Shown here: piece after piece, positions 12,327 through 16,196 of the stretch
Layout: the number at the start of each line of letters is the position of its first letter
Numbering within the stretch: position 1 is the first letter of the stretch
Assembly: GCF_003574315.2 (NCBI RefSeq)
Contig: NZ_AP025739.1
Coordinates: forward strand, 496,001 to 560,000
DNA length: 64,000 bases
Reading direction: 5' to 3'
From: Capsulimonas corticalis
Lineage (GTDB): Bacteria > Armatimonadota > Armatimonadia > Armatimonadales > Capsulimonadaceae
Position numbers and translations under genes: made by a program
Notes under the pieces: generated by a model
What the model saw: only the letters and a program-made list of their open reading frames with translations
What the model was told of the DNA's origin: nothing
The model's database searches: none

Positions 12327-15300
12327 TCACGCGCTCCGGCGAGGCTCCAGCCCAACGAACAGGCGACTGTCGGTTTCCGTGAGCGGATCGGTTTCTCCGG
12401 CGGCCGCCGCGCGGGCGAAGACCGCTCCTGGATACTGAGCGCGCATCGCGCGCGCCAGCACATGACGGCCGCCGATCGAAACCGGCTGCGGGGCGTCCAG
12501 GGTCATCTCTCGCCGCACTTCCCGATACCAGGATTGCCGCAATCCCAGCGCCAGAAGCGTCGACTCCTGCGGGGTCAGCCCCTCGACCAATCCGCGGCGA
12601 ATGACGGCCGTGTCACCGTGGATATCCTTCACGCTTCCCCACCCGATGACGTAGTAAAGCAGCAGCCGGATCACGCCGCGCGCGCCGCTCATGATGGAAA
12701 GCCGCGCGGGGTCGAGATCGTTATCCTCGAAGGTCTCCTGACGCGTGAGCATATCCGTCAGCTCCTCGGCGTATCGAGGCCATTTCTCAAGCCACTCCCC
12801 GACGCCGGGCTTCGGCGGCAGATCCAGCGTGCGCCCGAGAAACGGCCCGATGGACCACCCGGACCGTTTCGCCGCCTCGAAGCCTCGCCGGCGCAGACGC
12901 TCGGCGGCGCCAATCGCCGCCAAGAGACCCTCGCGCTCGAAGATACGCATTAAGGCGTTCGTCACCTCTCCCTTTGTCAGCAGTCCAGCCGGCGGCGGAT
13001 CGATCCCCAGAGCGATCAGCTCCGCGCGGCCATTATCGCTAAGGCTGAGCTGGGCGAGGCCCCAGTGCGCGTCCTGAGACGGACGCACATTCTCCAGCAG
13101 ACGAGGGTTGCGCGCCAGAAAGGCGTTCAGCGTCAGCAGAGCGCCGGCTTCGCGCTGCCCCGCCTCCGTGACCGGAAGGAACACCGCCCCCAAATCTCCG
13201 TCGAAATCCGCATTCATCAGCGATGTGATCGCTGCGGGAATCCGAATGACGCTTCCCTGGTCCCGCCGTGGACGCAGCGCCAGCAGCGGCGTATGCACAT
13301 GCTCCGGCTGGGAATAAAGCGTCGGTGACGAAAGCAGCACCCACGAACGCTCCATCAGAGCATCGAGCGCCCTCGCCGCTTCGGGCGTTCTCTGAACGAT
13401 CGCGTCCGGGTGAGGATAGTCACGCATCAGCATGGGGGCGAACAGCGCCCAGGCCATCTCGTCCGGCAGTGAGATCTGATCGAGCGCCAGAGCGTGATCT
13501 GGAGACAGCACGGCACGGCCGCTGAAGACGACGCTTTCGCTCCAGCGCAGATCCTCCGGACTGACCAGCGCTTCGAAGTAGGAGCCCACGTTTGTTTCGA
13601 GCGCCGCGACGCCTTTCCGGACCAGCGTCTCCGGAGCGCCGGAGCGTATCAGACGCTCCACCTGCGCGTTCACCTTGACGACGGCCTCATATTCCGCGAC
13701 ATCCGTACGAACGCCGATTGATGCGACGTATGTCCCGCGAAGCCAGGGATGCGCCACGGGCCGCGCAAGCTCCAAACCGCCGTCGGGAGACTGCAATGCA
13801 AATTCGATTCCGGCGTCCACCCGCTCGGCTTTGATCCCGGCGGCGGCCAGGCGCGAGGTGAGATTTGCAAATGCGGGCGAGGGAGACGGCGACTGTTCGA
13901 CCGGGCCCTGAGCGATGCGCGCCGCCAGCGTGGACACTTCCGGGTTTCGCGTGGAGCGCGTCTGATACAGTTCCCGGATGGTCTCGTACGCGCCGATCTC
14001 GCGCAGCGCCGCGTATTCCAAGTGGCGCAGGGTTTGACCGGAATACGCTGTCCCATCCGCATCACTCCCAGCTCCCCCACCGGCCCCCGTGGTATAAGAA
14101 ATCTTCGTAATCGCTTCAAAATCCAGACGCCCCCAGTAGACCCAACCCACGCAGCTCGTCCTGTCCAGCGCGGGGCCGTCCTTGCCGAGTGTTAAGAGAT
14201 CCAGACCGTCTTCGGGTAATCCCAAATCCTTCAGCAGGGCGCGCAGATCTTCCTGGGACGGCCCGCGAAACGGCGGCGCGAGAAACGGTTCTCCGGTAAG
14301 ATGCGCGATGCGTCCGGCGGCGGCTTCCCATAGCTGCCCCAGGTTGAGCCGCGTGATGACGCCGGAGGGCGAGTAGACCAGATCGACGGGCGCGCCATTC
14401 AGATGCGGCATCTCGTCGTCCGGCAGAATGCGGCTCACCGTACACTTTGCCCCATGCCGGTTCGAGAGGCGGTCCCCGGCTTGAAGCGGCGTATACGCCT
14501 CTCGGTAAGACTGAGTCGGAGCGGGTTCCGTGGAAAAACGGCGGGCGCACGATTCACTGATCACAACGGCGTCTTCAAACGTATCCGCCCCCCAGGGCGC
14601 ATACGCCGTCAGCAGGCTCCGTCCGCACCAAAAACCGGGAGTATCCGGCTCGTACCCCGTCTGCACGATGGCCGGCTCCGGCTTTGCCGTCGGCAGCCAT
14701 TGGCGCATCATATTGCAGCTCATGATCAGCCGGGCGTCGGCGCTGTGCTCGATAAATGGAATCATCATCGCGGGCAGCCCGAAGCCCGCTTCCGGAGAAT
14801 CGTCCACAATCACGAGCTTGCCGTCTCGGATCACCGCCCCCATCGCCACAGAGCAGATCTTATTGACGTTTCCCCCTTCAGGAGTCTCCAGCGGACTGAC
14901 ACGGCCGATGTTCGCGAAGGTGAGAGCGCCAGTGGCGCTTGGGATCACGAGCCGGCGCGCGTGGATCTTACGCGCAAGCCAGTTCGTTTTGTCCAGCCAC
15001 TGCGCGTAGACGGACGAAAGCGATGTGGGAGGATCGTGGTAAAACGAATCGAACCACGTGTCGATCGGAAGCCAGGAGCGCAGAAGCGCTTCGTCCCAGG
15101 ACAATCCCGCGGGCGCTTCGCCCAGACGCGCTTCGACATAGTCGTAAAGATGCTCGCCAATGCACTTGATATTGGCCGCCTCCAGGTCTTCCTGATCGGC
15201 GTAAGGCAGCACGATCCGCGGATGCGCCCAGGCCGGGCCGCCGAGCGCCGAGCCGTTGTCGCCGCCAAGCCAGAGCATCCCTTCTCGATCGGGGCGATGG

Positions 15301-15494
15301 AGTCCATCAAAGGTCGCCGAGATCTCGCTGCCTGACCCGAGCACGGAAACCGTGACCCGCGCGGTCGTCTCCGAGGGAAACTCCGCTGAGTATCCCGCGA
15401 GCGGAAGACGCTCGGAAAGCAATTCGGGAAGTCTTTCCTGGAGGAAGCGGTCATAAGACTCTTGGTGCCATGTCGTTTCCGTCATCTGGATCAT
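12327..15494 (-). CDS. Single-chain RNA polymerase: fused beta/beta-prime catalytic cores
   Basis: 1,055 residues carrying RpoB hallmarks first and RpoC hallmarks second. RpoB part: fork/rifampicin region QWLDKTN..IHARRL (165-182), SPLETPEGGN (200-209), TFEDAVVISE (E307/D308), GDRLSNRHGAKC (340-351), Arg382 in GVITRLNLGQL, and the C-terminal SGQTLRHLEYAALREIGAY from about 485. RpoC part: LELARPVAHPW (E575), clamp-helix segment about 598-641 with GAPETLVRK, FSGRAVL (S658), SPTLY (722-727), the metal site NADFDGD (D763, D765, D767), SGARG (936-940) and EGLTP (971-975, bridge-helix start). ATG 15494 overlaps the sigma stop (ATGA) and has GGGAGG 7 bp upstream. Standard beta plus beta-prime exceed 2,400 residues, so this is a reduced core. 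The related known single-chain enzymes are phage YonO and crAss-like phage polymerases; no phage gene is near. Confidence 0.93.
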   Translation of the reverse strand: MIQMTETTWHQESYDRFLQERLPELLSERLPLAGYSAEFPSETTARVTVSVLGSGSEISATFDGLHRPDREGMLWLGGDNGSALGGPAWAHPRIVLPYADQEDLEAANIKCIGEHLYDYVEARLGEAPAGLSWDEALLRSWLPIDTWFDSFYHDPPTSLSSVYAQWLDKTNWLARKIHARRLVIPSATGALTFANIGRVSPLETPEGGNVNKICSVAMGAVIRDGKLVIVDDSPEAGFGLPAMMIPFIEHSADARLIMSCNMMRQWLPTAKPEPAIVQTGYEPDTPGFWCGRSLLTAYAPWGADTFEDAVVISESCARRFSTEPAPTQSYREAYTPLQAGDRLSNRHGAKCTVSRILPDDEMPHLNGAPVDLVYSPSGVITRLNLGQLWEAAAGRIAHLTGEPFLAPPFRGPSQEDLRALLKDLGLPEDGLDLLTLGKDGPALDRTSCVGWVYWGRLDFEAITKISYTTGAGGGAGSDADGTAYSGQTLRHLEYAALREIGAYETIRELYQTRSTRNPEVSTLAARIAQGPVEQSPSPSPAFANLTSRLAAAGIKAERVDAGIEFALQSPDGGLELARPVAHPWLRGTYVASIGVRTDVAEYEAVVKVNAQVERLIRSGAPETLVRKGVAALETNVGSYFEALVSPEDLRWSESVVFSGRAVLSPDHALALDQISLPDEMAWALFAPMLMRDYPHPDAIVQRTPEAARALDALMERSWVLLSSPTLYSQPEHVHTPLLALRPRRDQGSVIRIPAAITSLMNADFDGDLGAVFLPVTEAGQREAGALLTLNAFLARNPRLLENVRPSQDAHWGLAQLSLSDNGRAELIALGIDPPPAGLLTKGEVTNALMRIFEREGLLAAIGAAERLRRRGFEAAKRSGWSIGPFLGRTLDLPPKPGVGEWLEKWPRYAEELTDMLTRQETFEDNDLDPARLSIMSGARGVIRLLLYYVIGWGSVKDIHGDTAVIRRGLVEGLTPQESTLLALGLRQSWYREVRREMTLDAPQPVSIGGRHVLARAMRAQYPGAVFARAAAAGETDPLTETDSRLFVGLEPRRSA

Positions 15495-16096
15495 TCGATG
15501 TCCTCCCATTCCTTCACCAACTCATTCCATTCCCGAGCCAGCTGCTGACGCGCGTGATAGAGCCGTGATTTGACCGTTCCGGTCGGGATGCCGAGCTTTT
15601 CCGCCGCTCCCGCCATCCCCATCTCGTCCTCATACACCAGCGTCCAGACCTCACGCTTCTCCTCGGACAACTGATCGACCATTCCGTAAAGACGCCGAAC
15701 GCTCTCCGCGCGCTGCACCGCCTCATCGGGCGTTTCGGCGGCGTCCGCCACCCAGTCGGCGGGCCGACCCCGGTCGTCGTCGGCTGTGGGCGGCGGTTCG
15801 AGCGTCGTCTCGCGGCGGCGGCGTACCGATCGGAGCTGATTGAGGGCAAGGTTCGTCGCCATCCGAAACAGCCATGGCTTGACGCCCCCGCGCCCGTCCC
15901 ACTGGTCCGCCCGGGTCCAAATCCGCAGGAATACCTCCTGAAGAAGATCCCCGGCGGCGTCTTCATCCCGGACGGTGCGCAGCAGATGCCGGCGCAGGGC
16001 GTCTTGATAGCGCTGGACGATTTGATCGAACGCCGCCTCATCCCGCTCCTGAATGCGCTCCATCAATTTGTCGTCACTGTTGGTCATCGGGTTCAC
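15491..16096 (-). CDS. ECF-family sigma factor paired with the single-chain polymerase
   Basis: A 201-residue sigma-70 family protein with only regions 2 and 4. Region 2 covers about residues 25-95 (AAGDLLQEVFLRIWTRADQW, GGVKPWLFRMATNLALNQLR). Region 4 covers about 135-190 (LSEEKREVWTLVYEDEMGM, then GIPTGTVKSRLYHARQQLA). An acidic linker (PPPTADDDRGRPADWVADAAETPDEA) joins them. The start is either GTG 16096 or ATG 16087; neither has a strong ribosome site. No anti-sigma gene adjoins. Its stop overlaps the polymerase start, so both proteins are made together. It most likely directs that polymerase to its promoters, though binding to the normal core cannot be excluded. Confidence 0.92.
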   Translation of the reverse strand: MNPMTNSDDKLMERIQERDEAAFDQIVQRYQDALRRHLLRTVRDEDAAGDLLQEVFLRIWTRADQWDGRGGVKPWLFRMATNLALNQLRSVRRRRETTLEPPPTADDDRGRPADWVADAAETPDEAVQRAESVRRLYGMVDQLSEEKREVWTLVYEDEMGMAGAAEKLGIPTGTVKSRLYHARQQLAREWNELVKEWEDIE

Positions 16097-16172
16097 TCAC
16101 AGTACCAAAGACACCGGCGGACGAGTGCGGGTTCAACGCGGGAGAAAATTGGGATCCAGGCGAAAAGCAAAG

Positions 16173-16196
16173 GGCCTATCCAATGGCGGATAGGCC
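16173..16196 (-). terminator. Rho-independent terminator of the GGDEF/EAL gene
   Basis: GGCCTATCC and its complement pair around a 6-nt loop. On the minus strand the hairpin is followed by CTTTGCTTTTC. It lies between the GGDEF/EAL stop (16273) and the sigma start, and so separates the sigma-polymerase operon from the upstream gene. Confidence 0.75.

Follow-up and report, generated by a model that had tools for sequence, protein, structure and literature searches.

The window analysed here, a stretch of 64,000 nucleotides from the Capsulimonas corticalis genome, carries a large reading frame on its minus strand that encodes a single-chain RNA polymerase, and a sigma factor gene lies immediately upstream of it. 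The features of this locus, in window coordinates, are as follows.

12327..15494, minus strand: single-chain (fused beta/beta-prime) RNA polymerase, 1,055 aa (Pfam, PDB profile, AlphaFold2 model)
12354..12431, minus strand: C-terminal helix-loop-helix (residues 1022-1047), tentatively a minimal trigger loop (AlphaFold2 helices; alignment by eye)
12501..12572, minus strand: bridge helix (residues 975-998; AlphaFold2 helix 975-998, hhalign to canonical beta-prime)
13194..13208, minus strand: catalytic DFDGD (residues 763-767) of the beta-prime-type barrel (DxDGD in 40 of 41 members)
13566..13697, minus strand: clamp helices (residues 600-643; AlphaFold2 helices 600-617 and 622-643, block pLDDT 90-97; alignment to E. 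coli beta-prime 269-302)
14121..14486, minus strand: beta double-psi-barrel half (residues 337-458, with GDRLSNRHGAK; Rpb2_6)
15491..15494, minus strand: ATGA overlap (4 bp) of sigma stop and polymerase start, read at the junction
15501..15507, minus strand: Shine-Dalgarno-like GGGAGGA within the last sigma codons, 6 nt ahead of the polymerase start (junction sequence)
15491..16096, minus strand: partner ECF sigma factor, 201 aa, GTG at 16096 with a possible in-frame ATG at 16087 (Sigma70_r2 1.3e-15, Sigma70_r4_2 3.1e-11)
16110..16135, minus strand: ECF-type promoter-like element TGAACCCGCACTCGTCCGCCGGTGTC, with -35 TGAACC and -10 CGGTGTC, about 14 nt before the sigma GTG (conserved over loci)
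16173..16196, minus strand: hairpin GGCCTATCC-GCCATT-GGATAGGCC followed by a T-rich run (read by eye)

The genome is a single 7.6-Mb contig. Canonical rpoB and rpoC are present in it as separate genes at about 3.98 Mb, and a second copy of the compact polymerase was not found. The flanking genes encode a kumamolisin-type peptidase, a PAS-GGDEF-EAL protein, LuxR/MalT-type regulators and a hybrid kinase, and no mobile-element genes were seen among the neighbours scanned around the polymerase. Codon use of the polymerase gene agrees with that of its neighbours (RSCU correlation 0.935, GC3 0.74). The initial annotation of this DNA, which had described a chromosomal gene with neighbour-like codon use, is borne out on both points. 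The nearest named relative is found in the congener Capsulimonas bin L041 (74% identity), and comparison of the two copies gave a dN of 0.17, a dS of 1.2 and an omega of about 0.14. The polymerase is under purifying selection.

The polymerase frame starts with ATG at 15494, and the plus strand over the same span holds 9 stops. The landmarks of the beta and then the beta-prime subunit follow one another along the 1,055-aa chain: the Q..D..TN..IHARR fork, SPLETPEG, FED, GDRLSNRHGAK, SGQTLRHLEYAALREIGAY, ELARPVAH, FSGRAVL, NADFDGD, SGARG and EGLTP. All landmarks named in the initial annotation, which gave the same frame and order and left the strand unstated, were recovered. Its further claim that this is not a random resemblance agrees with the Pfam matches (Rpb2_6 4.6e-26 at residues 337-458, Rpb1_2 4.3e-12), with a single-sequence search of the PDB in which the polymerase alone matched a beta chain at 7e-34, and with a profile of 41 family sequences that matched solved beta and beta-prime chains at 1e-86 and 1.5e-58, respectively. 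The NCBIfam cut-offs for the canonical subunits are not reached (125 vs 801 bits for TIGR02013, rpoB; 44.5 vs 963.5 bits for TIGR02386, rpoC). By these searches, the resemblance to RNA polymerase beta and beta-prime is far beyond chance, and the sequence case for the 1,055-aa chain as an RNA polymerase is strong. An AlphaFold2 model built with the 41 sequences reached a pLDDT of 89.7 and a pTM of 0.89. The closest PDB structures to the model were RNA polymerase beta chains (E 5e-22), with TM-scores that are modest (0.3-0.4), as would be expected when a single PDB chain spans just part of the query.

The chain retains the catalytic motifs. Loss of the DFDGD triad in close relatives, which the initial annotation had named, in combination with a lack of nucleotide polymerisation, as evidence that would count against a polymerase, was looked for, and DxDGD is kept in 40 of the 41. 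Basic residues of the second barrel are present as R342 and K350 of GDRLSNRHGAK, and R346, H347 and G348 are invariant among relatives. In the family profile a beta N-terminal motif opens the chain and a beta C-terminal anchor closes the beta part; the beta-prime part, judged by eye, opens at ELARPVAH, a HIELASP-like motif, so the stretch that bears the zinc-binding domain in canonical beta-prime is absent. The beta flap is also missing, with a FED-to-GDK distance of 23-37 residues in the family vs about 250 in E. coli, and comparison with E. coli shows that the rudder/switch stretch before SGRAV is missing as well. The same comparison, the AlphaFold2 model and hhalign indicate that three elements have been retained, namely the clamp helices, SGARG loop and bridge helix, and the region from SGARG to the bridge helix aligned with canonical beta-prime at a probability of 97.5 (E 5e-12). 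Trigger-loop homology of the C-terminal helix-loop-helix rests on an alignment by eye, as hhalign of this segment to canonical beta-prime gave nothing significant. In canonical RNA polymerase the best known role of the clamp helices is to dock sigma region 2, and in known holoenzymes the beta flap holds sigma region 4. Alignment to E. coli shows that the polymerase does not conserve the equivalents of beta-prime R275 and E295, residues we take to be important in the binding of sigma70.

The partner sigma has the ECF layout, about 200 aa with Sigma70 regions 2 and 4 only. In all 41 full-length relatives from eight phyla such a sigma gene precedes the polymerase gene on the same strand, mostly overlapping or abutting it. 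A sigma gene of this kind is also upstream in 15 of 15 other Armatimonadota loci read in detail, a set that overlaps with the 41. Scans of Latescibacterota, Poribacteria and Chloroflexota found the sigma gene wherever the polymerase was complete and the flank long enough. Most relatives overlap at the junction in a similar way (ATGA, TGATG or TAATG) and most junctions share a GGAGG-like sequence, which suggests that sigma and polymerase are translationally coupled. No other neighbour is conserved beside the pair among the relatives' loci. At three loci of one Latescibacterota clade (L066, L067 and L071) a gene is inserted between the two, an ABC transporter gene in two cases and a 391-aa TPR-like frame in one. 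The partner sigmas of the eight phyla group together, separately from the 20 other ECF sigmas of the Capsulimonas genome (support 87/74), and the operon's own sigma scores 279 bits compared with 149 bits for the next. Sigma and polymerase distances are correlated in a mirror-tree comparison (r 0.84; r 0.76 after dereplication, p 2e-4), and the region 2.2 motif DLxQExFLRxW is kept in 39 of 42 sigmas. Residue covariation between the two proteins carried little information at an Neff of 36, and pairs between the clamp and sigma region 2 were not enriched in it.

The promoter-like element TGAACC-N13-CGGTGTC was positive at 42 of 45 loci. Its strict form occurs at 32 of the 45. A matrix derived from the strict sites, 22 after dereplication, was used to score the remaining 13 loci, and 10 of them surpass the 95% level obtained from shuffles of the same locus. 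By this scoring L085 was borderline and no element was detected at L068 and L070. A simpler form of the pattern matched shuffled sequences at a rate of 1.2%. The exact motif has 5 matches in the Capsulimonas genome, and the operon's own is the only one outside any ORF of at least 100 aa; matches with one mismatch lie mostly within ORFs. Across the 45 member genomes the strict motif was found zero to four times per genome, often as the operon's own copy, and no regulon carrying it was found in these genomes or in that of Capsulimonas. At loci where a gap separates sigma and polymerase, the motif does not recur in front of the polymerase. The hairpin upstream of the promoter-like element is possibly a terminator that insulates the operon against read-through, and the congener's hairpin arms (CCCATCC/GGATGGG) differ from those of C. 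corticalis by a compensatory change.

A scan of named genomes found the 41 full-length relatives in Armatimonadota, Poribacteria, Hydrogenedentota, Latescibacterota, Chloroflexota, Gemmatimonadota, Myxococcota and Planctomycetota. Relatives that match the whole chain or most of it are present in 17 of 201 Armatimonadota genomes, the window genome included, and further phylum scans found genomes with relatives in Latescibacterota (22/64), Poribacteria (11/85) and Chloroflexota (5/400). Most relatives come from metagenome bins, and assemblies at chromosome level (OX638377, OX638329 and OY282377) contain several copies. A few copies carry stops. One compact polymerase (L064:2235-5360) has YFDGD instead of the DxDGD triad and RHGSR for RHGxK and is possibly inactive or repurposed; its genome also encodes one of the alpha-beta-beta-prime fusions (L113) described below. 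The eight-phylum spread, like the overlapping sigma gene and the conserved promoter-like element, did not figure in the initial annotation.

The initial annotation had proposed a tree with phage and cellular polymerases as a check. In that tree (444 shared columns, unrooted and without an archaeal outgroup) the compact polymerases form one clade with support of 100/100, apart from canonical RNA polymerases, viral fused RNA polymerases of about 2,000 aa and alpha-beta-beta-prime fusions. Clustering by phylum was also seen in a tree. Origin of the polymerase by a recent joining of the host rpoB and rpoC genes was rejected, as the host enzyme lies deep within the canonical clade. Other candidate identities were rejected as well: no full-length relative was found in 50,697 phage and 72,556 plasmid records, and PADLOC models of known defence proteins gave no match.

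The best reading of these sequence data is that the polymerase is a second, compact transcription machine beside the normal RNA polymerase. The model favoured here, to which we assign a probability of roughly 0.6, is a self-contained and autoregulated cassette of two genes on bacterial chromosomes. In this model the polymerase would be a single chain in which both catalytic cores, beta and beta-prime, survive along with the bridge helix and clamp helices. Its partner would be the ECF sigma whose gene directly precedes that of the polymerase, with translation of the two coupled. The sigma would recognise TGAACC-N13-CGGTGTC, dock through region 2 on the clamp helices of the polymerase and bring the single chain to the promoter in a complex of roughly 140 kDa that needs no alpha or omega. 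Since the promoter-like element precedes its own operon and is seldom found in other places, the cassette would activate its own expression, and its other targets would probably be few or condition-specific. Catalytic activity of the single chain, sigma binding and autoregulation are all things we infer, and the use of the adjacent sigma by the polymerase has this status because the flap that would hold sigma region 4 is missing. The retained clamp helices, the ever-present dedicated sigma and the conserved promoter argue for the cassette, although co-inheritance and a conserved promoter would also be expected if the sigma used the host RNA polymerase.

Given the missing flap, sigma region 4 may be held in another way, or the sigma may serve the host core. 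The main rival explanation builds on the latter and holds that the sigma acts with the host RNA polymerase to switch the operon on, while the single chain transcribes other templates sigma-free, as YonO-type enzymes may. ECF sigmas commonly activate their own operons, and the ordinary ECF type of the promoter, the flapless polymerase and a region 2.2 core-binding motif that would fit the host core too also speak for this rival. Against it stand a dedicated sigma subfamily co-inherited over eight phyla, the lack of any third gene conserved with the pair and clamp helices that were retained though much else was lost, and on balance it is considered rather unlikely. The sigma gene always found alongside, the strong profile match to cellular DNA-dependent RNA polymerase along the chain and the absence of a defence-model match also weigh against an enzyme that makes RNA but is not a promoter-dependent transcriptase, such as an RNA-dependent RNA polymerase or one for primer synthesis, repair or defence. 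That idea gains something from the lack of a regulon with the strict motif and from the two-barrel superfamily, which takes in RNA-dependent RNA polymerases and a DNA polymerase (PMC7824862, PMC10770324), but it appears improbable.

The patchy distribution over four phyla, the stops in some copies and the existence of fused phage RNA polymerases would fit a domesticated or decaying enzyme of phage or mobile-element origin that has no cellular role of its own. However, the phage and plasmid records gave no full-length relative, the viral scan yielded fused enzymes of about 2,000 aa from another clade, the scanned neighbours include no mobile-element genes, omega is low and the tree clusters by phylum, so that such an origin is judged very improbable.

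The two-gene cassette, if extended to the whole family, leads to a broader proposal, for which the odds are considered about even: at least eight phyla would own a second, orthogonal machine of two proteins, a one-chain RNA polymerase of bacterial type and a dedicated ECF sigma, with a promoter shared across phyla and self-driven expression. Such a machine would be the cellular equivalent of the autogenes of phages, and its RNA polymerase would be the smallest that depends on a sigma. No description of a sigma-paired chromosomal single-chain RNA polymerase was found in the open literature, though the polymerase itself may have been noticed earlier. If the proposal is true, some bacteria own a dedicated second RNA polymerase, against the rule that one core serves all bacterial promoters, and the minimal parts for sigma-dependent initiation would include no flap, alpha or omega. 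It would also bear on whether single-chain RNA polymerases are relics or reductions, and the two proteins would provide a compact orthogonal system for expression. With its conserved promoter, the idea of a sigma/single-chain cassette is directly testable.

Among known systems, YonO of SPbeta and YonO-like proteins are likewise single-chain two-barrel RNA polymerases of about 100 kDa, and the activity of YonO has been demonstrated (PMC5467207). The initial annotation had regarded single-chain relatives as confined to phages, which does not hold, as Firmicutes and cyanobacteria are reported to carry YonO-like genes in their main genomes (PMC5467207). YonO itself, a late-gene RNA polymerase of a phage, has no known sigma, whereas the compact polymerase is encoded next to one. 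A YonO-like identity was rejected after comparison with phi3T_60, the larger part of a split phi3T homologue, as no relation beyond DGD was detected (hhalign probability 0.3, E 0.19; BLASTP E 0.37). By sequence, the compact family is near bacterial RNA polymerase and unlike YonO. The crAss-like phage gp66, P23-45 gp64/gp96 and QDE-1 are also single-chain two-barrel polymerases, described as having diverged too far for a sequence-based phylogeny that spans families (PMC10770324), and they are absent from the best structural matches of the compact polymerase model. Derivatives of multisubunit RNA polymerases with fused barrels have been mentioned as well (PMC10770324).

The fused RNA polymerases of IMG/VR Caudovirales (compare mReC, PMC7481178) share the single chain with beta before beta-prime but are mostly about 2,000-2,100 aa long, lie on viral contigs and form a separate clade, and no partner-type sigma was found beside the polymerase at any of the 80 loci. 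Nearly all of these loci (L119-L198) encode beta and beta-prime in one chain, up to 3,000 aa, in a clade apart from cellular RNA polymerases. One of them (L154, 4216-10806) branches beside the canonical and alpha-fused enzymes and away from the other viral ones (92/91).

The alpha-beta-beta-prime fusions (L094:5369-12073, L113:635-6574 and L090:4784-11434) are, like the compact polymerase, cellular second RNA polymerases in one chain, and some have an ECF-like sigma gene nearby, directly downstream of the L090 fusion and divergent upstream of the L094 fusion. They lie at chromosome-like loci of Poribacteria and Latescibacterota whose genomes also have canonical rpoC. They differ in length (1,979-2,234 aa), in the alpha N-terminal domains at their start and in branching beside canonical RNA polymerases. 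With canonical RpoB/RpoC and an ECF sigma, the compact system shares catalytic motifs and their order, fold blocks, clamp helices, the ECF sigma and the -35/-10 layout. The canonical enzyme spreads roughly 2,250-2,900 aa over two subunits, whereas the compact polymerase is one chain of about 1,050 aa that lacks the flap, the zinc-binding domain and the rudder stretch, is encoded together with its own sigma and is present in addition to the normal rpoBC.
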